NCBI RefSeq assembly: GCF_023091245.1
Contig: NZ_JAHWXN010000001.1
Location: forward strand, 806,001-870,000
Length of the DNA stretch: 64,000 bases
Reading direction: 5' to 3'
Source: Microbacterium croceum
GTDB lineage: Bacteria > Actinomycetota > Actinomycetes > Actinomycetales > Microbacteriaceae
Under the pieces are notes generated by a model. It was given only the letters and a program-made list of their open reading frames with translations. It ran no database searches and was not told the DNA's origin. This document shows positions 8,230 through 40,148 of this stretch, piece by piece. Numbering within the stretch: position 1 is the first letter of the stretch; each line of letters starts with the position of its first letter. The position numbers and the translations under genes are program-made.

Positions 8230-8385
8230 TCAGCCGAGCAGCAGCGTGAGCACGGTCGCGCCTCCGCCGCCGAGGATCAGCGCGACGATGACGGTCCAGG
8301 CCACGATGCGGATGCGACGGTTGCGGCGCTCGCCGAGGCTGCCGTAATCCTCTTCGTTCGGGTTCTGGCGGCTGACGTCGCTCAT
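8230..8385 (-). CDS. Small single-pass membrane protein, translationally coupled to purL
   Basis: A 51-residue protein beginning [21 protein letters not shown] polar, charged N-terminus is followed by one hydrophobic segment ([20 protein letters not shown]). Its ATG overlaps the purL stop as ATGA, so it is expressed with purine synthesis. Such tiny coupled membrane proteins are common after housekeeping genes in Microbacteriaceae; no function can be assigned. Confidence 0.75.
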
Positions 8386-12483: not shown

Positions 12484-13362
12484 TTACGCGGTCTCGGGGG
12501 CCACGACGGTGGTCGCGCCGCGCCTCACGCGCATGAGCGACTCTGCCGAGAGGGCGGCCTCCGCGGCCGTGGGGCGCTCGGCCGGGTCCAGGCGCGTCAT
12601 CCGCTCGAGCAGGTGGCGCCAGTCGTCGCGGATGCGATCCGGGATCGCGGGCGGATTCATGACGCGGGCGGTCGCGGCGCCGCGGCCGGATCCGTTCGCG
12701 GGGTACGCCAGGGACCCGGTCAGCGCCTCGAGCGCGACCAGGCCGAGGCTGAACACGTCACCGGCAGTGCCGGGCTCGGCGTCACGCAGCAGCTCTGGCG
12801 CCATGTACGCGAAGGTGCCGAGCACGACGCCGGGTGCCGTCATGCGGGGGCTGCCGACTTCGCAGGCGATGCCGAAGTCCGCGAGCTTCGCCGTCCACGG
12901 ACCCCCGAGCGCGTCGCGGGCGAGCATGATGTTGGACGGCTTCACGTCTCGGTGGATGATCCCCGCCGCATGCACGACGGCCAGCCCCTCGGCGAGGTCC
13001 CTGGTGAAACGGGCGACCTGGCGAGGGCGCATCGGACCGCTGGTGAGCCGTCGGGCGAGCGTGGGGCCGTCGACGAACTCCATCACCAGGTAGCGAGGGC
13101 GTCCGGGGATCAGCTGCGCGTCGTACAGCGTCACCAGCGAGCGGTGGTCGACGGCGGCCAGCAGCGCCTTCTCGGTGTGGGCGCGGTCGGCGGATGCGGC
13201 GGCGCGGTCATCCTCGTGGATCATCTTGATCGCGACCGGGCGCTCCATGCGGGTGTCCATCGCGTGATAGACGGTCGACATCCCGCCGCGTCCGACGCGC
13301 TCCTGGAGCAGGTAGCGGTCGTCGAGCAGAGCGGTCGCCGGTGAGACGACGTCGAGCGTCAT
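12484..13362 (-). CDS. Serine/threonine protein kinase, soluble
   Basis: A 292-residue Hanks-type kinase consisting of the catalytic domain only. Visible motifs: glycine loop GRGGMSTVYHA, Lys in VAIKMI, catalytic HRDVKPSN, DFG in LADFGIA, and APELL. There is no membrane segment or extracellular sensor, unlike PknB, so it must act in the cytoplasm or be recruited by a partner. The ATG at 13362 has GAGGGTG upstream. Substrates are unknown. Confidence 0.93.
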   Translation of the reverse strand: MTLDVVSPATALLDDRYLLQERVGRGGMSTVYHAMDTRMERPVAIKMIHEDDRAAASADRAHTEKALLAAVDHRSLVTLYDAQLIPGRPRYLVMEFVDGPTLARRLTSGPMRPRQVARFTRDLAEGLAVVHAAGIIHRDVKPSNIMLARDALGGPWTAKLADFGIACEVGSPRMTAPGVVLGTFAYMAPELLRDAEPGTAGDVFSLGLVALEALTGSLAYPANGSGRGAATARVMNPPAIPDRIRDDWRHLLERMTRLDPAERPTAAEAALSAESLMRVRRGATTVVAPETA

Positions 13363-23902: not shown

Positions 23903-24517
23903 ATGAGAATTTCCGAACTGTCAGCCCAGACCGGCGTGACCGTGCCGACGATCAAGTACTACCTGCGCGAGGGTCTGCTGCCCGAGGGGGAGCGGTCATC
24001 TGCGACTCAGGCTGCATACTGCGAGAAGCACGTGGAGCGGCTGCGGGTGATCCGGGCGCTGCTCGATGCCGGCGTGAGCATCGCCGAGACGCGACGGGTG
24101 CTGGCGGCGCTGGATGATCCGCCGGCGAACCCGCACGAGCTGCTCGGGACCGCGCATGCGGCGATCACTCCCCCGGTGGATGAAGCCCTGGATCTGACCG
24201 AGGCCGAGCGGCTGGTCGAGGGACTCGGGTGGAAGCCCGGGATGTGCGACGAAGCTGTGCTGCACGCGGTTGCTCGGGCGCTGCAGGGGTTGGAGCGAGC
24301 CGGATTCACCGTGCCGGATGCAGTGATGGCGGAGTACCTCGCGAGCGCACGGCGGATCGCGGATGCCGAGCTCGCGGGCGTGCCGGAGGAGTCTGCGGAA
24401 GCCGCGGTGCGCTACGTGGTGCTGGGGTCGGTGCTGGTGGAGCCGTTGTTGTTGGCGTTGCGGCGGGTGGCGCAGCAGGTGAGTTCGGGGGAGCGGTTTG
24501 GTGGGAGCGTCGGCTAG
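23903..24517 (+). CDS. MerR-type transcriptional regulator
   Basis: A 204-residue regulator with an N-terminal MerR winged helix (MRISELSAQTGVTVPTIKYY) and a longer-than-usual helical effector part. AAGAGGTGG precedes ATG 23903. No metal-binding Cys pattern is seen, so an organic ligand is more likely. Tail-to-tail with the helicase gene, overlapping by 4 bases. Confidence 0.9.
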   Translation: MRISELSAQTGVTVPTIKYYLREGLLPEGERSSATQAAYCEKHVERLRVIRALLDAGVSIAETRRVLAALDDPPANPHELLGTAHAAITPPVDEALDLTEAERLVEGLGWKPGMCDEAVLHAVARALQGLERAGFTVPDAVMAEYLASARRIADAELAGVPEESAEAAVRYVVLGSVLVEPLLLALRRVAQQVSSGERFGGSVG

Positions 24518-26253
24518 CGCGCGAGGAGCGCGGAGAGCCGTTCCCGAAGCGTCGGATCGCACACATACACATACGTTCCACGCATTCCGCGAGTCAGCAG
24601 CACCCCATAGATGTTCCTGATGAAAGTCAGCAAGTCATCGTCCCCAAAGGCATCCTTGAGGTGCCCCGTGTTCTCCTTGCCCTTCTTGTCACGGTAGTTG
24701 TCGCGGTCGGCGACGATGAGCCCGGTCTCGGGATCGAGGCGGAGATCCGGTCCGATGATGACGCCGGCGTAGTTGAGGTCGTACCCCTGAACGGTATGGA
24801 TAGAGCCGACCTCTTCGAGGGAACCTGACGAGTTGATCCAGTCCTTATCTGTGCCGTTCCACCTCATGCGCTCGCCGTCGAGCTCGATGTCGAAGGCACT
24901 GGGGTTCTTCTTCGAAACCCAGTCCCATGCGTAGCCGGCGACAAACCGTGAGAGGCCGACCTCAGCATCCCTCTGACGGATAGCGGCACGCATCTCACCG
25001 AGATCGTCGAAGAGTCGGAGGTCATACTCGCCTAGGTCGGGGAGTGAGGGCGATTCGTCTCTCAGCAGAGCCCGGACAAACTCGACGTAGTCGGCACCGG
25101 CTTGAACGCGCATCTGAGTAGTCAGGCGGAAGAACCGGTGCGCATCGTTGGCCGCCCGCAATTCAGCCGCCAGGATCGTCGGTGAAAGGTCGTGCGGTCG
25201 CACGCTCTGTTCGCCATCGACGAGCAGGAGCTGATGACGGCTCCGAGCCTTGATCCAGTCGAGCTGCGTGTAGCGCGGGTCATCTTCGCCGAACAGAGCC
25301 GCATTGATGTCACGGAACTTCTTGTTCTGGACACCGGATGCTTGATTCGCTCGCTGTCCGAGACGATGGGTCTCATCGACCAGCACGAGGTCGAACTCAG
25401 CATCAGACTCTCCGAGCTGGAAGGGTGACATCACCATGCTTGCGTCGAGTTTCGGGGTCTTCTTGAAGACCTTCTTGACCGACTCGCGCAGCGACTGCTG
25501 CGGGATGACGAGCGCCATCCGAAGAGTCTTGAGAAGTTCGCGATTCTCAGGGACGAAGAACTCCGAGAACATCGAGTCGGGTTCGACACCGTCGTGGTCT
25601 TGGTAGTCGCGAATGTCAGCGAGCAGCTTCATGAGGAAGATCGCGATGATCGTCTTCCCTGTCCCGGGGTTTCCCTGCACGACGAGCGTCGATCGAACGC
25701 CTGGATGCTGGAGGTCCTCGAGCAGGCCTTCGACGATGTCCATGATTGCGATCGCTTGATCATCGGTCAGCGCTTTGAACGGTGACAACTTGAAGAGGTC
25801 GGAGTTCTCGATCTGCGGGATGCTGCGTGAGAAGAGCCCTTCCGCTCGCAAGGCTTCGAAAACATCGCGGAAGGACTCCCGGTAGAGATCGCGATCGTAG
25901 TACTGCGAATCGGTCAGGCCATCGTTGCCGTTGAGGATGCGATATTGACCATCGCCCGAGAACCAGCGGATGAGGTGCGACTCGAGGTCGAGGCAGACCG
26001 ACTTGTTGAAAGTGTGATCAATGACGACCCGGATCGATTCAAGGTCTTCGTTCTTCTTGGCCCCTGCGAGGTGCTGGCGCATCCGAGTTGCGGCGCTTAC
26101 CGTCTCGCCGACGTAGAGACCGGGAGAACTGCGCCGGTTATCGCCTTCGATCACGTAGACGACGGGCCAGTTGGTGTGCCTGGCATCGTCCCGAGCCCAG
26201 GCGTCCACTGACTCGCGGCGAAAGGGAAGCCGCTGGATGTTGAATTCGGTCAC
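24514..26253 (-). CDS. GIY-YIG nuclease domain fused to DUF2075 helicase
   Basis: A 579-residue fusion. Residues about 30-100 form a GIY-YIG domain (PVVYVIEG, LYVGE at 46-50, Arg57, and the metal-binding Glu91 in DLESHLIRW). From about 160 it is an SF1-like helicase/ATPase of the DUF2075 type with Walker A GNPGTGKT (194-201), Walker B LVLVDETHR (289-297), TQMR and HTVQGYDLNYAGVIIG motifs. Such fusions are candidate DNA- or RNA-processing defence effectors. GTG 26253 overlaps the upstream mazG-like stop (GTGA), so the two are co-translated. Base composition is less GC-rich than the flanking genes, suggesting transfer. Confidence 0.88.
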   Translation of the reverse strand: MTEFNIQRLPFRRESVDAWARDDARHTNWPVVYVIEGDNRRSSPGLYVGETVSAATRMRQHLAGAKKNEDLESIRVVIDHTFNKSVCLDLESHLIRWFSGDGQYRILNGNDGLTDSQYYDRDLYRESFRDVFEALRAEGLFSRSIPQIENSDLFKLSPFKALTDDQAIAIMDIVEGLLEDLQHPGVRSTLVVQGNPGTGKTIIAIFLMKLLADIRDYQDHDGVEPDSMFSEFFVPENRELLKTLRMALVIPQQSLRESVKKVFKKTPKLDASMVMSPFQLGESDAEFDLVLVDETHRLGQRANQASGVQNKKFRDINAALFGEDDPRYTQLDWIKARSRHQLLLVDGEQSVRPHDLSPTILAAELRAANDAHRFFRLTTQMRVQAGADYVEFVRALLRDESPSLPDLGEYDLRLFDDLGEMRAAIRQRDAEVGLSRFVAGYAWDWVSKKNPSAFDIELDGERMRWNGTDKDWINSSGSLEEVGSIHTVQGYDLNYAGVIIGPDLRLDPETGLIVADRDNYRDKKGKENTGHLKDAFGDDDLLTFIRNIYGVLLTRGMRGTYVYVCDPTLRERLSALLAR

Positions 26254-26658: not shown

Positions 26659-26664
26659 ATGACC

Positions 26665-31576: not shown

Positions 31577-31588
31577 CTACTCGTGTAG
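31577..31588. promoter_or_regulatory. LacI-type operator box 1
   Basis: CTACTCGTGTAG, one base off the perfect palindrome CTACTCGAGTAG found at 40103. It is 49 bp upstream of the first secreted propeller gene, with a half-site-like CTACCGAG just before it. Confidence 0.6.
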
Positions 31589-31636
31589 CGTTCGAGCAAC
31601 CGCACCGGCGGATGACGCGTTCGAGGAGGAACGGTG

Positions 31637-32713
31637 ATGCTGAAGAAGTCCCTGAAGACAACTGTGCTGAGGCTCATACCGGCGGCGTTGCTCGCCGTCG
31701 CGCTGGTGGCCTCCGCGGCTCCAGCTGCTGTCGCGGCGGGGCCCTGGTCGACTCCGACGCCCGTGTATGCGGCATCCTCGATCCAGACTCCCGGGTACGC
31801 CTACGCGCCCTCCGCCATCGCCGGCACGACGGAGCGATCGTTCGTCTGCCACAGTCGCGCCGCCGGCGATGTGCGCGACGACATCTTCCTCGTGAAGCGC
31901 ACCGGCTCGACGGTGACCTCGAGCGCGTCGGTGCTGACGGCATCCGCCTCGGGCTGGGACTCGTTCCATATCTGCGACCCGAGCGTGGTGAGAGTCGACG
32001 CGACGCTCGGCGGGCAGAGCTACGACTACGCGATGTTCTACCTCGGCAACGATCAGAACTGCTCCTGCCACAACCAGATCGGCGTCGCGTACGCCGACAG
32101 CCTCGATGGCCCGTGGGTCAAGGCTCCGAACCCGGTCGTCGGTTTCAAGGCCGGCGCGAGCTCCTCCGAGTGGGGAGTGGGCCAGCCGAGCGCCACGACC
32201 ATCGATGCCGCGGCGGGAACGGTGCTGCTCACCTGGACCGAGGGGTACTCGACGGGAACGGTCGCGAAGCTCGGGCAGGTGAGTCTGCTGTCGGGCACGC
32301 CGACGCTCTCGGGTGTCGGCGCCGTGCCCACGGCCGGCCTGCTCGACAGCTCGGGTGCTGCGGACTTCCTCAACAACTTCGACATCGCCTACTCGCCGCA
32401 GCGCGACCGCTTCTACCTGGTGCGCGAGATGCATCCGTATCCGTCGACGAGCCCCAACTACATCTCCACCGCGGTGCAGGTGCTGAGTATCTCCGGCGCG
32501 GGCATGTGGTCCGGCACCGGAACCTGGTCCGCTGAGGGCGTGATCGACAGCTCGGTCACCGGGGCGTCGCGCAGCCACAACCCGGGCTTCCTGCGCACGC
32601 AGTTCGGCACCCTGCCCGACGAATCGCAACTGACCGTGTTCGTCACGACCGCTTCTCTCGACCCGAACTCGCTCTGGTCGTACGCCATTGTGCGCACGAC
32701 GGCGAGCCTCTGA
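31637..32713 (+). CDS. Secreted beta-propeller protein, GH43/GH117-like (copy 1)
   Basis: A 358-residue exported protein; signal peptide ends near AAVAA. The body shows propeller repeats seen in GH43/GH32/GH117-type glycosidases: YAYAPSAI, SFHICDPSVV, YAMFYLGND and QIGVAYADSLDGPWVK. The Asp of CDPSVV is a candidate catalytic base. It is about 40% similar by eye to the next gene, so the two are tandem paralogues. ATG 31637 is chosen over GTG 31634 because of GAGGAGGA 6 nt upstream. A LacI-type box precedes it. It probably releases a sugar from an extracellular polymer or glycoside; the substrate is unknown, and members of such clans that act on pentofuranosides are known. Confidence 0.75.
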   Translation: MLKKSLKTTVLRLIPAALLAVALVASAAPAAVAAGPWSTPTPVYAASSIQTPGYAYAPSAIAGTTERSFVCHSRAAGDVRDDIFLVKRTGSTVTSSASVLTASASGWDSFHICDPSVVRVDATLGGQSYDYAMFYLGNDQNCSCHNQIGVAYADSLDGPWVKAPNPVVGFKAGASSSEWGVGQPSATTIDAAAGTVLLTWTEGYSTGTVAKLGQVSLLSGTPTLSGVGAVPTAGLLDSSGAADFLNNFDIAYSPQRDRFYLVREMHPYPSTSPNYISTAVQVLSISGAGMWSGTGTWSAEGVIDSSVTGASRSHNPGFLRTQFGTLPDESQLTVFVTTASLDPNSLWSYAIVRTTASL

Positions 32714-32721
32714 CAGCGTCG

Positions 32722-32746
32722 CGAGTGCATTTCCGCCACGCACTCG
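32722..32746 (+). terminator. Hairpin between the two secreted propeller genes
   Basis: CGAGTGC and GCACTCG arms around an 11-nt loop, 8 bases after the stop of copy 1 and before the operator of copy 2. This supports separate transcription of the two paralogues. Confidence 0.5.
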
Positions 32747-32758
32747 TGCACACATCGT

Positions 32759-32770
32759 CTACTCGAGTAA
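32759..32770. promoter_or_regulatory. LacI-type operator box 2
   Basis: CTACTCGAGTAA matches CTACTCGAGTAG at 11 of 12 positions and is followed by a second degenerate copy (CTCGCTCGAGTGG). It is 34 bp upstream of the second secreted gene. Confidence 0.65.
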
Positions 32771-32803
32771 ACTCGCTCGAGTGGCGCGACAGAAAGGAAT
32801 GCG

Positions 32804-33982
32804 ATGACGCATGACCACCTGGCACCGCGCAGGCGCCTGACCCGACGGCTGCTCGCGGCCGCGACCACCGCAGCTCTCGGAGCAGCTCTCCTCATCGGAG
32901 TCGCCCCCGCCACCGCCGACACCTCGCCGACCGGCGACGAGGCGTCCCGCACGCAGGCCCCGGTGACATGGGACCCGGCCTCGCAGCGGGAGGTCTACGC
33001 ACCGGCCGACGGCTTCTACTCCTATGCCCCATCGGTCGTGCGCGACGGCGACACCGAATGGATCTGGACCTGTCACAACGACGAGTTCCGCGTGATCAAG
33101 GACCACATCTACCTGACGAAGATCGTCGACGGCGTCGTGGTCGACTCCCGGTCGGTGCTGGAGGCATCGCCCGCCCCGGCGTGGGACAGCTTTCACGTGT
33201 GCGACCCGAGCGTCGTCGCCGGGAAGTTCCGCTACCTGGGTGTGAAGTACTCGCTCGCGATGTTCTATCTGGGCAACGACCTCGATGCGAGCGCGCACAA
33301 TCAGATCGGCGTCGCGTTCGCGAACAGTCCGGAGGGGCCGTGGGTCAAGCTTCCCGAGCCGATCGTGACGTTCGACCGCACCGACCAGTGGGGTGCCGGT
33401 CAGCCCACGGCGGTGATGATGCCCGGCAAGCCCGGCACGATTCTGCTCGGGTACACCCAGGGAGACACCTCGACACGCGCCTACGTGACCGAGGTGAATC
33501 TGAAGAAGGCCGAGGCCTTCACCACGACTGCTCCTGTGCAGTTGCCGACCTCGGGCCTGACCGGTACCGACGGTGCTCCGGACTATCTCAACGGCTTCGA
33601 CCTGGTCTTCGACAAGAAGGGCGGTCAGTTCCTCACCGTGCGGGAACAGCATCCGTACGCCTTCGACAACCCCTGGTGGATCGGTCCCGCCGTGCAGGTG
33701 GCGACCATCCCACAGCGCGATCTGCTGCGCGGGCGAGGAACGTGGAAGCCCGTCGGTGACGTGAACGAGGCCCTGACCGGTTTCGACCGCAACCACAACG
33801 CCGGTTTCGCGCGGGACTGGCAAGGACATCTCGCGGAGAAGAACGCGGTGTCCGTCGTCTTCACGACGAGCTGTTCCAGCCTGCCGACGATCGACGACCA
33901 GGACTGGAGTCTCGCCACCTGTGACTCGCTCTACTCCTACGACCTGTGGTCGATCGACGGTGCCCTGAACAGACGACGATGA
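32804..33982 (+). CDS. Secreted beta-propeller protein, GH43/GH117-like (copy 2)
   Basis: A 392-residue exported paralogue of the preceding protein with a signal peptide ending near TAD. It shares YSYAPSVV, SFHVCDPSVV, LAMFYLGND, QIGVAFANSPEGPWVK and QHPYAFDNPWW. The conserved Cys-Asp-Pro-Ser and Asn-Gln-Ile-Gly segments suggest the same fold and active site. ATG 32804 has AAAGGAA upstream. It has its own LacI-type box and lies just before the lacI-type gene. Probably a secreted glycosidase of the same catabolic system, with a related but not identical target. Confidence 0.75.
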   Translation: MTHDHLAPRRRLTRRLLAAATTAALGAALLIGVAPATADTSPTGDEASRTQAPVTWDPASQREVYAPADGFYSYAPSVVRDGDTEWIWTCHNDEFRVIKDHIYLTKIVDGVVVDSRSVLEASPAPAWDSFHVCDPSVVAGKFRYLGVKYSLAMFYLGNDLDASAHNQIGVAFANSPEGPWVKLPEPIVTFDRTDQWGAGQPTAVMMPGKPGTILLGYTQGDTSTRAYVTEVNLKKAEAFTTTAPVQLPTSGLTGTDGAPDYLNGFDLVFDKKGGQFLTVREQHPYAFDNPWWIGPAVQVATIPQRDLLRGRGTWKPVGDVNEALTGFDRNHNAGFARDWQGHLAEKNAVSVVFTTSCSSLPTIDDQDWSLATCDSLYSYDLWSIDGALNRRR

Positions 33983-33986
33983 GCGT

Positions 33987-34020
33987 GGCGGGGTCGGCTC
34001 ATCCCAGAGTCGGCCCCGCC
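33987..34020 (+). terminator. Hairpin terminator after secreted copy 2
   Basis: GGCGGGG and CCCCGCC arms extended by GUC/GGC pairs around a 10-12-nt loop, directly after the stop at 33982. It separates the secreted gene from the lacI-type gene, whose own -10 (TATCCT) lies near 34045. Confidence 0.6.
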
Positions 34021-34072
34021 TCCGCTCGTGCCCGGCCCAACGGTTATCCTTTTCCCCAGCAGAAAGCACCCC

Positions 34073-35107
34073 ATGACACTCCCTCACGAAAACGCGGCCC
34101 CCCGCGCCGCCACCCGCACCGATGTGGCCAAGCTGGCCGGTGTGAGCGCTGCCGTCGTGAGCTATGTCGTGAACAACGGCCCTCGGCCGGTCGCGACCGC
34201 CACCCGCAAACGGGTGGAGGCGGCCATGGAGCAGCTCGACTACCGGCCGAACGCTCTTGCGCGGGCGCTCAAGCTCCGCCGCGCGCAGGCGGTGGGAGTG
34301 GTCGTGCCAGACGTGAGCAACACGTTCTTCGGAGCTCTGGCGCGCGAGCTATCGAACCAGGCTTTCGAGACCGGCTACGCACTGCTGCTCGGCGACGCCG
34401 ACAACGACATCGAGCGGGAGCGCGCGCAGATCGAGTCGCTCGTCAGTCATCAGATCGACGGGCTCATCATCACGAGCCTCGAGCCCGGCTCCGTGGTCGA
34501 TGCCCGCGGCACGCGCACCGTGTTCCTGGGCCAGCGCACGCTCTCGGGTCAGACGTCGATCGTCGTCGACAACGAGGGAGGGGCGCGCATGGCGGTGGAG
34601 CACCTCGCGAAGCACGGGCGTCGCCGCATCGCGCATCTGGGCGGTCTCGAAGGGCTGCCGGGCGCCGAGGAGCGTGTGCGGGGGTGGAGCGCCCAGTGCG
34701 AGGAGCTCGGCCTCGACATCGACGACGAGCTCCTCGTCCGCTCGGAGTTCAGCCGCGCCGGAGGTCTCGACGCAGGAAGGACGCTCCTGGCGGGTGCCCT
34801 GCACCCGGATGCCGTGTTCGTCGCCTCCGATGTTCAGGCCCTCGGGCTGTTGGCCGCTGCACGCGAGCGCGGCATCCGCGTGCCAGAGGACCTGGCTGTG
34901 ATCTCGTTCGACGGCACGGACGACGCCGTGTTCAGCGATCCGCCCCTCACCGCGGTGGAGCAGCCGATCGCCGCGCTCGCTGCGGCCGCGCTCGAAGCGG
35001 TGGTCGGTACGCAGCCGGTCGAGTCATCGATCGTGCCGGTGTCGCTCGTCATCCGCTCATCGTGCGGATGCGATCAGGATCAGCAGGAGGGCGCCGCCCG
35101 GCGCTAG
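34073..35107 (+). CDS. LacI family transcriptional regulator
   Basis: A 344-residue repressor. The HTH reads TRTDVAKLAGVSAAVVSYVV, followed by the hinge helix (ALARALKLRRAQAVGVVVPD) and a periplasmic-binding-like sensor with NTFFGALARELSNQAFETGY and ISFDGTDDAVFSDPPLTAVE. ATG 34073 gives the usual N-terminus. It overlaps the convergent ribokinase by 4 bases. Near-identical CTACTCGAGTAG boxes precede the two secreted genes before it and the nucleoside-hydrolase/ABC/ribokinase operon after it, so it is the likely local regulator. The ligand is probably a ribose- or nucleoside-like sugar. Confidence 0.92.
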   Translation: MTLPHENAAPRAATRTDVAKLAGVSAAVVSYVVNNGPRPVATATRKRVEAAMEQLDYRPNALARALKLRRAQAVGVVVPDVSNTFFGALARELSNQAFETGYALLLGDADNDIERERAQIESLVSHQIDGLIITSLEPGSVVDARGTRTVFLGQRTLSGQTSIVVDNEGGARMAVEHLAKHGRRRIAHLGGLEGLPGAEERVRGWSAQCEELGLDIDDELLVRSEFSRAGGLDAGRTLLAGALHPDAVFVASDVQALGLLAAARERGIRVPEDLAVISFDGTDDAVFSDPPLTAVEQPIAALAAAALEAVVGTQPVESSIVPVSLVIRSSCGCDQDQQEGAARR

Positions 35108-36003
35108 CCCTGCAGCCAGCGATCGAGCTCGGCGGAGGTCGGATACGACGACTGCGTTCCCGGCCGCGTGGCGGCATGGGCGCCCACCTGCGTGGCGAAG
35201 ACGGTTGCCGCCTCCAGTGCGTCTCCTGCGGCGAGTCGGGCGACCAGGGCACCGGTGAACGCGTCGCCAGCGCCGCTCGTGTCGACCGCGGTCACGGCGC
35301 GGCCGGGTGCGCGGAAGACGCCGGATCCGGAGACGGCAGCGGCACCCGCGGCTCCGAGCGTCACCACGAGCTGCGGCACGGAGAGGCTCGCGCGCGCCTG
35401 CTGCAGCTCCGCGTCAGAGGAACTGTCGACGGCCGCCCCCAGCGCCTCGACGAGCTCGTGCTCGTTGACCACCATCACATCGACCGCGTGCCTCAGCGCG
35501 TCGGGGATCAGGCGGAAAGGCGACGGGTTGAGCACGAAACGGGCATCCGCTGCATGCGCGTGATGCGCGGCGGCGATCACGGCCTCGTCGGGGATCTCGA
35601 AGCCGCTGAGCACCCAGTCCGCGTCCACGGTCGCCACATCGTCGGCGGCGACCGTGGCGTTCGCCCCGGGAGAGATGACGATGAGGTTCTGACCGTCGTC
35701 ATCGACGAAGATCACCGCCTCGCCGGTCGAACCGTCGGGTCGACGACGCACGCCGGTCACGTCGACGCCGGACGCGGCGACCGCGTCGAGCAGCAGCGTG
35801 CCCGCGGCATCCGCTCCGACCGCTCCGACCAGACGCACGTCTGCCCCGAGCAGGGACGCCGCGACCGCCTGGTTGGCGCCCTTGCCGCCCGATGCCACCT
35901 CGTGGCCGGTGGCGTGCAGCGATTCCCCTTCGCGTGGGAGGCGACCCAGGGAGTAGGTGCGGTCGAGGTTGAGAGATCCGACGACGACGATCCGTGCATT
36001 CAT
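35104..36003 (-). CDS. rbsK: Ribokinase
   Basis: PfkB-family sugar kinase of 299 residues. Features: GSLNLDRTY at the N-terminus, the first PfkB signature as GHEVASGGKGANQAVAAS, and the ATP/anion-hole signature VDTSGAGDAFTGAL with the catalytic Asp. It would phosphorylate D-ribose at O5 for entry into the pentose phosphate pathway. It is last in the LacI-controlled operon and overlaps the permease by 4 bases. Its presence with a nucleoside hydrolase supports ribose as the intracellular intermediate; a related pentose is possible. Confidence 0.88.
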   Translation of the reverse strand: MNARIVVVGSLNLDRTYSLGRLPREGESLHATGHEVASGGKGANQAVAASLLGADVRLVGAVGADAAGTLLLDAVAASGVDVTGVRRRPDGSTGEAVIFVDDDGQNLIVISPGANATVAADDVATVDADWVLSGFEIPDEAVIAAAHHAHAADARFVLNPSPFRLIPDALRHAVDVMVVNEHELVEALGAAVDSSSDAELQQARASLSVPQLVVTLGAAGAAAVSGSGVFRAPGRAVTAVDTSGAGDAFTGALVARLAAGDALEAATVFATQVGAHAATRPGTQSSYPTSAELDRWLQG

Positions 36004-36836
36004 CCCTTGAGTCCTGTCGTGGAGAGCGATTCGGTGTACTGCTTCTGGAAGAAGAGCAGCAGGATCATGGGGATGATGCTGAGCACGAAGGATCCGGCCA
36101 TGATCTGCCCCAGGTCGACCGTGAACATCGTGCTCAGGTTGGCGAGCGCGATCGGAGCGAGCTGGCGCTCCGGCGAGGTGCCGATCAGCAGCGGCCACAG
36201 GTACGCCTGCCATTGCGATAGGAACAGCATCATGCCGGCGCCGATCAATGCCGGCTTCGACAGGGGCAGCACGATGCGCCACAGCGTGCCGAAGGTGCCG
36301 AGGCCGTCGATCTCCGCGGCTTCCATGAGCTCCGACGGGATGCCGAGGAAGAACTGCCGCAGGACGAAGATCGCGAAGCCGTTGGCGAGCGCGGGAAGGA
36401 TGAGGCCGGCATAGGAATCCGACAGATTCCAGCCTTGGAACAGTGAGGAGAGGGGGATGGCGATCGCGTCGAACGGGATCATCGCGACGATCACGATGAA
36501 ACTGAACACGATGCCTCTGCCTCGGAATCGCATGGTGGCGAGGGCGTACGCGGCGGGGATCGCGATGAGCAGCCCGAACAGGATCGTGGCCCCGGCGACG
36601 AAGAAGCTGTTGAAGAGCCCGAGCACGAACGGACCGCTCAGCAGTCCGGTGTAGTTGGTGAGCTCGCCACCCCAGGGGATGAAAGCCAGCCACGACAGCG
36701 GCGTCATGTTGTCGACGTAGGTGTTGCCCGGTCGGGTCGACGAGACGAACACCCACCAGAGCGGCAGGAAGATCGCGACGGCGATCAGGCCGCCGGCGAT
36801 GGACAGCGTGATCGTGGCGCCCCGAGATCGCCTCAT
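36000..36836 (-). CDS. ABC transporter permease, MalG type
   Basis: A 278-residue inner-membrane permease with six membrane segments and the EAA loop ELMEAAEIDGLGTFGTLWRI. Overlaps both neighbours by 4 bases (ATGA each side), so the operon is translationally coupled. It is a CUT1 carbohydrate permease rather than an Rbs- or BmpA-type nucleoside permease, which suggests a glycoside substrate. Confidence 0.93.
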   Translation of the reverse strand: MRRSRGATITLSIAGGLIAVAIFLPLWWVFVSSTRPGNTYVDNMTPLSWLAFIPWGGELTNYTGLLSGPFVLGLFNSFFVAGATILFGLLIAIPAAYALATMRFRGRGIVFSFIVIVAMIPFDAIAIPLSSLFQGWNLSDSYAGLILPALANGFAIFVLRQFFLGIPSELMEAAEIDGLGTFGTLWRIVLPLSKPALIGAGMMLFLSQWQAYLWPLLIGTSPERQLAPIALANLSTMFTVDLGQIMAGSFVLSIIPMILLLFFQKQYTESLSTTGLKG

Positions 36837-37795
36837 GACTTCTCCTCGCGAAGCAGACGGAACTGGATGGCGACGATGATCGACAGCAGGAGCATGAGGA
36901 CGACGACCTCGGCCTGTCCCACGCCCAGGTCGTTCAGCAGATATGCGCGGTTGTAGATGTCGTACATGATGAAGTTGGTGGCGCCGTTCGGACCGCCCTT
37001 GGTCAGCACCTGGACCGGGGCGAACACGAGGAACGAACCGACCGTGCAGGCGATGAGCACGAACGACATCGGCCGCTTGAGCAGCGGCAGCGTGATGGCG
37101 AACAGTCGGCGCCACCACCCGGCACCGTCGAGTGCGGCGGCCTCGTACAGGCTCTCCGGGATGTCCTTGAGTCCGGCGATGATGAAGATCATCCAGTAGC
37201 CGATCGCACCCCAGGTGACCATGATGCCGATGGAGAACGCGGCCTGGTTCGCCGACGTGAGGAACGGCTGCGGGGGGAGGCCGATCGTCTCGAGGATGCT
37301 GTTGACGAGTCCGTCCGGCTGGAGCGCGGTCGACCAGATGAGGGCGACGACAGCGCCGGGCACGGCGGCGGGCACGAAGATGAGCGAGCGCCACAGCCCC
37401 ACGAAGGGGACGTTCTGCACGGTCAGCAGCGCGAGCGCGGCCGACAGGATCACGATCGCGGGGTTCAGCACGAGGTTGAACAACAGGGTCACAGCCAACA
37501 CGGCGTGGAAACCGGGGTCCGTGAACAGGTACGCGTAGTTCTCGATGCCCGCGAACGACGTGGTGCCGGTGGCGAGAGACGTGCTCTGGAAGCTCTGGCC
37601 GACGGCCGTGATCATCGGCAGGACGCGCAGGAAGAACAGTGCGAGGAGGGCGGGGGCGAGCATGAGCAGCGCCATGGCCGTGGTGCGAGCGGCGCGGCTG
37701 CGTCGGGTGGGTGTGCGGCGGTCGGGGGCTCGGAGAGCGGCGGAACCCGTGGGTGCCGCCGCTCCCGCCCGACGCTCTCGCGTCGTGGTGCTCAT
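36833..37795 (-). CDS. ABC transporter permease, MalF type
   Basis: A 320-residue permease with an Arg-rich cytoplasmic N-terminus, six membrane segments and EAA loop SLYEAAALDGAGWWRRLFAI. It starts 5 bases after the binding-protein stop and overlaps the next permease by 4 bases. No ATPase is encoded in the operon, so a shared MsiK-type ATPase is implied. Confidence 0.93.
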   Translation of the reverse strand: MSTTTRERRAGAAAPTGSAALRAPDRRTPTRRSRAARTTAMALLMLAPALLALFFLRVLPMITAVGQSFQSTSLATGTTSFAGIENYAYLFTDPGFHAVLAVTLLFNLVLNPAIVILSAALALLTVQNVPFVGLWRSLIFVPAAVPGAVVALIWSTALQPDGLVNSILETIGLPPQPFLTSANQAAFSIGIMVTWGAIGYWMIFIIAGLKDIPESLYEAAALDGAGWWRRLFAITLPLLKRPMSFVLIACTVGSFLVFAPVQVLTKGGPNGATNFIMYDIYNRAYLLNDLGVGQAEVVVLMLLLSIIVAIQFRLLREEKS

Positions 37796-37800
37796 CTGTC

Positions 37801-39099
37801 CTACTTCAGTCGGTCGATCTGCTCGGTGATCTCCTTGTCGGCCTGCGCCGCGCGTTCCGCCGGGTCGGACCCGTTGCGGATGTCGGAGAACATCTGGTTG
37901 GCGCCGGGCTCGAACACGCTGTATCCGACGACGACCGGTCGGTGCACCGCGTTGTCCTGCAACTGGTACTCCATGATGTCGCCGAAGGGCGCGGACGATT
38001 CGCCCGCGGTGCCGCTGACCCGCTCGGCGTACTGGGCGTAGGCCTCCTTCGTCGTCGGCGCGATTCCTGCCACCTCCGCGGACTGGGCGTTGCCGGTCGC
38101 GTCGATCGTGATGTAGCGGAGGAAGGCTTCGGCGGCCTCCTGGTTCTCGGACTTCTCGGCGATCGCGACGCCCCAGGAATCGGTCGACGTCGCGCGCTCA
38201 CCGCCCTCGAAGTAGGGAGCGGGGGCCATGCCCCAGGCGATGTCTCCGTCTTCGTTCACGGCCACGCCCCAGGGGCCTGAGATCATGAACGCCGCCTTGC
38301 CGGTCTGGAAGAGCGCGCCGTTCTTGTCGTTCGTGATTCCCCGAGGAGAGAGACCCTCTTCGAAGAGGTCGTGGTACCACGACAGCGCCCGCTGCCATCC
38401 GTCGTTCGAGAAGTCGACGACACCCTCGTCATCGATCCCGTCGCCGCCGCCCGCAGATCGGCCCAGCATCTGCAGCTGGTAGTACGAGTCCCACTGGTCG
38501 AACAGGAACGGATACTCGGCGACGCCGGCTTCCTGCACCTTTCGGGCCGCTTCGGTGAGCTGCTCATACGTCCATGGATCGGTCGGATCGGTCGACGGCG
38601 GCTCGACGCCGGCCGCGGCGAGCAGATCGGCGTTGTAGTAGAGGAACTGCGACGTCGTCCACGGCTCGATCGCGCGCAACGTGCCGTCGACCTCCCGCGC
38701 CGTGACCATGCTCTCCGAGACGGATGCCTCGACGGCGTCCTCCTTGAGGGCGCTGAGGTCGGCGAGGAAGCCGCGGTTGGTCCAGTCGAGCAGGCCGCCG
38801 CCGGCATCCACGACCATGACGTCGATACCGCCGCCTCCGCCGCCGAGGCGCTGGTTGATCGTGCTCGTGTACTGCGCGTACGGGATGTTGAGCTGCTTGA
38901 TGGTGATGCCCGGGTGCTCCTTCTGGAACGCCTCGATCACCGGTGCCCAGGTCTCTGCGGGGTCGGCGTTCGCGAAGGTGAGCGTGACCGCCCCGCCTTC
39001 GTCTCCGGCCTGGCTCTGGCCGCCGGCGCAGCCGGCCAGGACCAGGCCGGCGATGGTCAGCCCGGCGACGGCGGTCGCACGCATCGGGTTCGTGTGCAT
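37801..39099 (-). CDS. ABC transporter substrate-binding lipoprotein
   Basis: A 432-residue extracellular binding protein. Signal peptide ends LTIAGLVLAGC, a clear lipobox, followed by a short Gly/Gln linker and the CUT1 binding-protein body (TLTFANADPAETWAPVIEAF; GKAAFMISGPWGVAV). ATG 39099 has GAGGAG upstream. It follows the nucleoside hydrolase gene by 34 bases. It would bind the product of the secreted hydrolases. Ligand unknown. Confidence 0.92.
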   Translation of the reverse strand: MHTNPMRATAVAGLTIAGLVLAGCAGGQSQAGDEGGAVTLTFANADPAETWAPVIEAFQKEHPGITIKQLNIPYAQYTSTINQRLGGGGGGIDVMVVDAGGGLLDWTNRGFLADLSALKEDAVEASVSESMVTAREVDGTLRAIEPWTTSQFLYYNADLLAAAGVEPPSTDPTDPWTYEQLTEAARKVQEAGVAEYPFLFDQWDSYYQLQMLGRSAGGGDGIDDEGVVDFSNDGWQRALSWYHDLFEEGLSPRGITNDKNGALFQTGKAAFMISGPWGVAVNEDGDIAWGMAPAPYFEGGERATSTDSWGVAIAEKSENQEAAEAFLRYITIDATGNAQSAEVAGIAPTTKEAYAQYAERVSGTAGESSAPFGDIMEYQLQDNAVHRPVVVGYSVFEPGANQMFSDIRNGSDPAERAAQADKEITEQIDRLK

Positions 39100-39133
39100 G
39101 TGCTGGTCTCCTCGTTGAGTGTGATGCAGGGTG

Positions 39134-40042
39134 TCAGATGGGGGTGGAAGCGGACGTGGAGGTATCCGCGGCGGTGAGGATGCGATCGGTGATCTCGGCA
39201 GCGACGGCATCGACATCCATGTCCGTCACGATCGAATGGATGCCGTCGGAGTCGTGCTGGAAGAGGGTCCGGCCCTCCGGTGTCACCGTCACGGTCCCGG
39301 CCGAGATCTCGAAGAGGTCGGGACGGGCGAGCGTGAGCACGGCGATCGGGTCGTGGGGCACGTTGTAGTCCTGCTCGGCGAAGGCCCAGAATCGGGTCAT
39401 CTCGGCGGCGACCATGGCGCCCAGCGGGCCCGCCGCGCCGATGCGTGCGAGCTCGTCGCTGCCGAGGCGTACACGCTCGGTCTGCTCGAGTCCGACGGCG
39501 AGCACAGGGACGCCTGACGCGAAGAGCGAGCGGGCGGCATCGATGTCGCACTTGATGTTGTGCTCGACGATGTCGCGGCGGAAGTCGCCGCCCATGATGA
39601 CGACCTGGTTCACGCGGTGCCCTGCCTGCATGGTGGCGGCGGCCGCGTCGGTGAGGGGGCCGATCGCGACGAGGGTGGCGCTCGCGGCGAGCAGGTCGAT
39701 GGCAGAGACCGCGGACTCGAACTCATGGTCGTCGAGGTCGGCGATGGTCGATCCTTCGTGCCCTGGCCACCAGACGGGCCGTCCCGACTGCGTCTCCGCG
39801 TGGCCGGCGGCGATCGGGGGAGGAGTCAGGCCGGCGGCGCGGTAGGTTGCCGCGACGATCCGTGCGCGAAGCTCGACATCACCGTAGACAGTAGTGACTC
39901 CTGTGACGTGGAGCTCGGGGGAGCCGAAGATCATCGACAAGGCGAGAAGGTCATCGACATCCGTGCCGATGTCGGTGTCGAGGACGAACTCTCTCGACGG
40001 ACGACCGGAGCTTCGGTCTGCCGTCAGCAGTGACTGGCTCAT
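39134..40042 (-). CDS. Nucleoside hydrolase (inosine-uridine type)
   Basis: A 302-residue N-ribohydrolase. The calcium-binding signature is present as FVLDTDIGTDVDDLLALSM at about residues 18-36, with VVIMGGDF and the later DPIAVL segment that supplies a further ligand. It would split an N-glycosidic (or related ribosyl) bond to free ribose. It is the first gene of the operon and has AAGGA before its ATG; two LacI-type boxes lie 61-106 bp upstream. With the transporter and ribokinase it makes a complete import-cleave-phosphorylate route. Confidence 0.92.
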   Translation of the reverse strand: MSQSLLTADRSSGRPSREFVLDTDIGTDVDDLLALSMIFGSPELHVTGVTTVYGDVELRARIVAATYRAAGLTPPPIAAGHAETQSGRPVWWPGHEGSTIADLDDHEFESAVSAIDLLAASATLVAIGPLTDAAAATMQAGHRVNQVVIMGGDFRRDIVEHNIKCDIDAARSLFASGVPVLAVGLEQTERVRLGSDELARIGAAGPLGAMVAAEMTRFWAFAEQDYNVPHDPIAVLTLARPDLFEISAGTVTVTPEGRTLFQHDSDGIHSIVTDMDVDAVAAEITDRILTAADTSTSASTPI

Positions 40043-40102
40043 GTGTTCCTTACGCGACGGGTCCCGAGGCTTCGCCTGGGAAGTGGTGCTGATATGGCGA
40101 TG

Positions 40103-40114
40103 CTACTCGAGTAG
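40103..40114. promoter_or_regulatory. LacI-type operator box 3 (perfect palindrome)
   Basis: CTACTCGAGTAG, a perfect 12-bp palindrome, 61 bp upstream of the nucleoside hydrolase start. It is the reference copy for the boxes at 31577, 32759 and 40137. Confidence 0.75.
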
Positions 40115-40136
40115 ATTCACGCCTGCAAGAGAGAAT

Positions 40137-40148
40137 CTACTCGAGTTG
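40137..40148. promoter_or_regulatory. LacI-type operator box 4
   Basis: CTACTCGAGTTG, 10 of 12 matches, centred 34 bp from box 3. Paired sites at this distance could allow cooperative binding. TAGATT sequences between the two boxes on the minus strand may be promoter elements. Otherwise the 236-bp gap 40043-40278 holds only promoters for both divergent genes. Confidence 0.65.

Follow-up and report, generated by a model that had tools for sequence, protein, structure and literature searches.

A predicted LacI regulon of Microbacterium croceum joins secreted propeller proteins to a nucleoside hydrolase and a CUT1-type importer, with a ribosylated glycan as a possible substrate

Sugar regulons of the LacI-CUT1 type combine a secreted glycosidase, a CUT1 importer, an intracellular hydrolase, a kinase and a LacI regulator. 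A locus of Microbacterium croceum, contained in a stretch of 64,000 nucleotides that we call the window (contig NZ_JAHWXN010000001.1 of NCBI RefSeq assembly GCF_023091245.1, positions 806,001 to 870,000 of the forward strand), is predicted to be such a regulon and follows the same overall logic; here, however, the intracellular hydrolase is a nucleoside hydrolase (NH), which is unusual, and the secreted proteins, PropA and PropB, belong to an uncharacterised family of five-bladed-propeller type. What do such proteins have to do with one another? The sequence argues for one predicted regulon comprising the propellers and the import operon, a conclusion that we regard as well supported, and we judge it an even call whether this LacI-controlled regulon serves the catabolism of an extracellular ribofuranosyl-bearing glycan or glycoside.

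The genes and predicted operators are as follows; the whole locus, with all four boxes, is retained as locus L065 in another Microbacterium genome (G185).

31577..31588, plus strand: predicted LacI box CTACTCGTGTAG, upstream of propA; same box before propA in G185 (L065:4667)
31634-32713, plus strand: propA, secreted five-bladed-propeller-type protein, signal peptide by eye
32759..32770, plus strand: predicted LacI box CTACTCGAGTAA, upstream of propB; same in L065:5848
32804-33982, plus strand: propB, secreted five-bladed-propeller-type protein, signal peptide by eye, 39% identical to propA
34073-35107, plus strand: LacI-family regulator, recognition helix VSAAVVSYVVNNGPRPV
35104-36003, minus strand: ribokinase-type PfkB kinase, tail to tail with LacI, 4-bp overlap
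36000-36836, minus strand: ATP-binding cassette (ABC) permease 2, UgpE/MalG-like, CUT1 type
36833-37795, minus strand: ABC permease 1, UgpA/MalF-like, CUT1 type
37801-39099, minus strand: solute-binding protein (SBP_bac_1)
39134-40042, minus strand: NH (IU_nuc_hydro), DTDIGTDVDD motif
40103..40114, plus strand: predicted LacI box CTACTCGAGTAG, promoter-proximal box of the import operon; counterpart L065:13282
40137..40148, plus strand: predicted LacI box CTACTCGAGTTG, 34 bp from the 40103 box

NH, the solute-binding protein, permease 1, permease 2 and the ribokinase form a tight operon on the minus strand. The start of propA is GTG 31634 or, judged by eye from the spacing of the ribosome-binding site, ATG 31637. 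LacI itself lacks a box and begins 90 bp downstream of propB, which makes co-transcription with propB, and autoregulation, probable.

The initial annotation had placed four boxes before three transcription units, and all four were recovered where it had put them, one exact (40103) and three with one mismatch (31577, 32759 and 40137); allowing two mismatches to CTACTCGAGTAG adds one more in the window, at 476 (2 mismatches). Dinucleotide shuffles of the window gave a mean of 1.23 boxes at this looser threshold, and none of 100 shuffles reached the observed five; with at most one mismatch, four were observed, whereas 60 first-order Markov sequences averaged 0.05 and never exceeded 1. Across all 3,677,164 bases of the genome there are five places with at most one mismatch, four being those at this locus and the fifth (C1:36977) lying inside an open reading frame (ORF) that by eye resembles a DNA methyltransferase. 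The reversed pattern, taken as a control, occurs at 59 places per strand, so the rarity of the box is the pattern's own and not general to 12-mers of like composition. Of the four boxes, the one at 40103 alone is perfectly palindromic. The 34-bp spacing of the double box before NH is kept in the window, L065 and L006, L007, L008 and L023. A looser IUPAC version of the box, scanned over the same genome, matched two other places and revealed no clear additional regulon member, and a consensus scan around the three box regions found no sigma-70-like promoter.

Does the arrangement recur elsewhere? A propB scan of contigs representing one genome per species returned 19 loci from other species, hosted by Microbacterium, Jiangella, Haloactinopolyspora, Agromyces, Kribbella, Nonomuraea, Fodinicola, Schaalia, Actinomyces, Paenibacillus and a metagenome-assembled genome of Phycisphaerae. 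A LacI with the helix AVVSYV or AVISYV is present in 15 of the 19; L013 has a different LacI, and L014, L015 and L019 show none. Boxes with at most one mismatch were detected in 10 loci (22 boxes), and, with two mismatches allowed, in 13 of the 15 loci having the same-helix LacI versus 0 of the 4 others, counts in which some two-mismatch matches are surely due to chance and three close Jiangella loci are not independent. The box was not found in two Kribbella loci; L020 carries a related palindrome, ATCTATACGCATAGAT, adjoining LacI. NH is present in 16 of the 19 loci (L006-L014, L016-L018, L020, L021, L023 and L024), those of L013 and L014 being of a Paenibacillus type, and L022, a short contig, encodes a second NH-like protein (NH2) without NH. 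The proposal of a single regulon made in the initial annotation held, boxes and same-helix LacI recurring in other genera and most propeller loci also encoding an NH, and the pathway with a ribosylated substrate that it sketched is plausible.

The best evidence for a shared pathway is that the propeller has chosen the same kind of partner from NHs of different descent, adjoining members of at least three distant lineages. The propellers of L011 and L012 are 62% and 60% identical to propB, and their NH2 is 55% identical to that of L006; their NHs show only 29% and 32% identity and their solute-binding proteins about 41%. The Paenibacillus NHs are 71% identical to each other, and that of L014 is 20% identical to the window NH. 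In a midpoint-rooted NH tree of 28 rows, from which the L013 and L014 NHs, two own-genome paralogues (L062 and L064) and a second L054 NH are absent, the propeller label changes 4 times, compared with 9.4 times in shuffles, none of 500 being as low. By this tree, the propeller-linked NHs are clustered and not of single origin.

NH2, some 375 residues long and a conserved neighbour in 11 of the 19 propeller loci (L006-L012, L016, L020, L022 and L023), is predicted to be a divergent nucleoside hydrolase. Pfam IU_nuc_hydro matches four of the five NH2 proteins scanned, three above the cut-off, and hhalign against NH (probability 96.4, E 1.1e-9) sets TDL...DPGDN against DTDIGTDVDD and EWN...DP against EHN...D. 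The fold model is weak (pLDDT 67.2) and the Foldseek rows shown are NHs with a TM of about 0.3-0.45, so the kinship rests mostly on hhalign and Pfam. NH2 was detected in 3 of 247 Microbacterium genomes (G021, G197 and G227), each time within this module, and was not found in the window's genome.

How might these components work together? PropA and PropB, judging from fold and signal peptides, would be secreted and act on a polymer or conjugate outside the cell; the importer, CUT1-type by similarity, would bring in its putative cargo, the ribosylated oligosaccharide or glycoside so released; cytoplasmic NH, in many relatives with NH2, would remove D-ribose from an O- or N-riboside, a substrate suggested by fold and motif; the ribokinase, assigned by similarity, would produce ribose 5-phosphate; and LacI would bind the boxes before the three units, releasing them on a presumed inducer, the ribosylated product or ribose. 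The family assignments agree with these roles to varying degrees. LacI passes the Pfam cut-offs of PF00356 (helix-turn-helix) and PF13377 (periplasmic-binding-like domain). SBP_bac_1 and two BPD_transp_1 permeases give the make-up of a CUT1 importer, the permeases being closest to the NCBIfam models UgpA/UgpE with scores below cut-off. The kinase exceeds the PfkB cut-off of Pfam (179.3 versus 25.8 bits) and has its nearest relatives among ribokinases (6znx, E 9.4e-54). NH exceeds that of IU_nuc_hydro (122.4 versus 34.2 bits), a family that it shares with the known NHs (RihA/B/C and plant NRH); its closest PDB relatives are NHs, and the motif DTDxGxDxDD plus E160, N162, D166 and D231 is invariant in 14 NHs. 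Unlike the known enzymes, it falls below every NCBIfam equivalog cut-off shown and partners a secreted protein as well as a CUT1 importer. That NH may cut an O-riboside is supported in principle by XopQ, an NH-fold protein for which an excerpt of PMC8150971 gives weak activity on p-nitrophenyl beta-D-ribofuranoside and shows none on common nucleosides.

The full DTDxGTDVDD motif of NH would suit a nucleoside-use regulon of the UriR/UriH type with an ABC importer, where the cargo is an N-riboside and the propellers strip a group from, or free, nucleoside conjugates; modules with NH, CUT1 importer and ribokinase but no propeller could then be simple nucleoside uptake. CUT1 importers serve oligosaccharides and glycosides rather than nucleosides, conjugates that need a secreted glycoside hydrolase-like propeller are rare, and some propeller family members bear lectin-type domains, all of which makes this explanation rather unlikely in our view. 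The Corynebacterium uridine operon includes a ribokinase. LacI, ribokinase, NH and transporter are indeed the make-up of the uridine pathway (UriT import, UriH hydrolase; excerpt of PMC3350403), and UriR/UriT/UriH is the nearest described system, sharing LacI-family control (UriR is named as a LacI regulator in a reference title within the same source), an NH and a transporter. It differs by its major facilitator superfamily transporter in place of CUT1 and by cre-like operators (again a reference title in PMC3350403), and, unlike the present loci, it is without secreted propellers and without NH2. The UriR and UriH family cut-offs were missed here (138.3 versus 550 and 54.3 versus 450).

Much therefore turns on the propellers. 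PropA and PropB have the five-bladed fold common to GH43 and GH117 (also GH62 and GH32), and the best fold matches include the arabinofuranosidases and fructofuranosidases of GH43, GH62 and GH32. The GH117 sequence match is short (3p2n, E 1.8e-7 over 63 profile positions). Unlike GH43 proteins, the window copies stay below the Pfam cut-off (PF04616, 32.2 bits; propA 14.3, propB 12.7), neither reaching that of any Pfam model, and the family has an invariant pattern of its own (WDSFHxCDPSV, GQP, RNHN); 11 of 20 members match Pfam GH43 at E <= 0.1, the best at E 0.0046. We rejected GH43 membership, to which the fold says yes and the Pfam score no. Of the families that the initial annotation had named for comparison, kinship to GH43 and GH117 stood at fold level, and GH183, which we take to correspond to Pfam DUF4185, found no support: the 20 members matched only GH43 and, once, DUF4136 (E <= 0.1) in a Pfam library whose inclusion of the DUF4185 model was not separately checked. 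The search for homologues found 158 and listed 120, of which 118 plus a separate set of 20 make the 138 sequences of the conservation count. D100 and D134 are present in 138 of 138, D128 in 137, D266 in 136 and E281 in 132. In the distant relatives P0095, P0099, P0107 and P0113, lectin-type domains (PF13385, or PF14200 with PF00652) stand at the C terminus, as is often the case in proteins that meet polysaccharide. In L013 (1416-2470, minus strand; Paenibacillus sp. D2_2), a second propeller copy is split over two overlapping frames, by frameshift or assembly error.

Several observations weigh against a ribosyl-glycan pathway. The position of the GH43 catalytic base is, by eye, Ala75 (A in 132, G in 5 and S in 1 of the 138 sequences), no Asp occurring there, and hhalign of the propeller profile against one bona fide-looking GH43 (from L066) gave no match; hydrolysis by the propellers accordingly stays a prediction, as does their substrate. 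On the other side, GH43-like proteins outside CAZy can be active enzymes, one having proved to be an endo-xylanase, though it retains the GH43 base (excerpt of PMC11022575). The kinase misses the cut-off of the NCBIfam ribokinase TIGR02152 (249.5 versus 299.65 bits, E 4.5e-74). The locus itself, to which this check was confined, contains no ATPase gene. Neither NH nor NH2 lies near the propeller in two of the 19 loci (L015 and L019), and ribokinase was not matched in L016, L017, L020, L022 and L024. LacI, the solute-binding protein, both permeases and NH stand together in 9 of 12 NH regions free of propellers, and G021 has a close module with NH2 and no propeller in its genome.

The Ala at the base position, the want of any Pfam model above cut-off for the window copies and the name 'Sugar-binding protein' that one source gives to the homologue P0015 would all fit non-enzymatic, secreted glycan-binding propellers that aid cargo capture. 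We consider this very unlikely: several acidic residues are fixed, or almost fixed, across 138 sequences, as expected of an active site, and separate lectin-type domains are already present in some members. Another furanoside (arabinofuranosyl, apiofuranosyl or fructofuranosyl), with NH and kinase of shifted specificity, would accord with the enzymes among the best fold matches of the propellers and with the scores of NH and kinase below the NCBIfam equivalog cut-offs shown. Set against it are the proximity of the kinase to ribokinases (by both 6znx and TIGR02152) and the recurrence of NHs, a class known for ribosides, from at least three lineages; a substrate of this kind seems unlikely.

Returning to the ribofuranosyl glycan, a bolder version, which we put forward tentatively as possible and somewhat doubtful, is that the propellers form a new glycoside hydrolase family acting on extracellular ribofuranosyl glycans with a rebuilt active site on the GH43 plan, that NH and NH2 are O-ribosidases, and that this would be the first dedicated ribose-polysaccharide pathway, assembled repeatedly from unrelated NHs. 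Ribofuranose is present in many bacterial surface polysaccharides. The literature collection searched returned nothing on ribofuranosidase, nor on ribofuranose together with glycoside hydrolases and kinases or nucleoside hydrolases. The locus hints at a ribose-containing natural material with a so far undescribed breakdown route, and with a propeller family that accompanies NHs of varied ancestry, the idea of an enzyme class for ribosyl glycans can be put to the test. If the proposal is true, NHs would gain a role beyond nucleoside salvage, and names could be given to proteins at present annotated as hypothetical or, by default, as GH43.

How widespread is the module? In a phylum survey of 396 genomes, the propeller (E <= 1e-20) was detected in that of the window and in no other, and is thus rare. 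Within the genus, 4 of 247 genomes encode propellers (G000, G185, G197 and G227); NH at E <= 1e-30 is present in 17, reaching at least 60% identity only in these four and in G021. The figures for G227 and G197 match L006 and L009, so this survey and the 19 loci overlap. Boxes with at most one mismatch number 5, 5, 4 and 4 in G000, G185, G197 and G227; among the 243 other genomes, only G057 (5, scattered across four contigs) and G083 (4) reach four, and 121 of the 247 have at least one box, by chance or otherwise. Of 14 NH places (E <= 1e-30) outside propeller loci, 12 regions were fetched, 7 of which include ribokinase; the places in G066 and G133 were covered as short loci, showing CUT1 permeases and NH. 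Such modules indicate that the NH-CUT1 core can stand alone, with the propeller added or lost.

Conservation of L065 is uneven, the permeases being 98-99.6% identical to those of the window, and ribokinase, propB and NH 86-88%. In G102 (L052/L071), boxes CTATTGGAGTAG at 12915 and CTACTGGAGTAG at 12940 precede a propeller-free NH-CUT1-ribokinase module; their centre is TGGA in place of TCGA, and the LacI helix is the same. L066 (G176:C1:2770500-2787500) has two boxes of the same type, at 8349 and 8370 (an interval of 21 bp), flanked by a ribokinase-like gene and a LacI whose helix is VSTAVVSYVLNDGPRPV, a GH43 gene being nearby. This LacI paralogue with the same helix and boxes at another operon indicates that the regulator in the window is not the sole user of the box type, and the box seems to belong to a whole LacI subfamily.

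Neighbouring genes were considered as a clue to the substrate and set aside: 40 neighbour or core proteins were scanned by Pfam, the outer neighbours vary between loci, and the finds of a GH18 (L013), sulfatases (L015) and a rhamnosidase (L055) seem to be local features that do not inform on the substrate. Elsewhere in the window, an ORF at 24514-26253 on the minus strand joins, by eye, a GIY-YIG-like start to a helicase/ATPase-like body and adjoins restriction-like ORFs at 26659 and 28038, a possible defence island.
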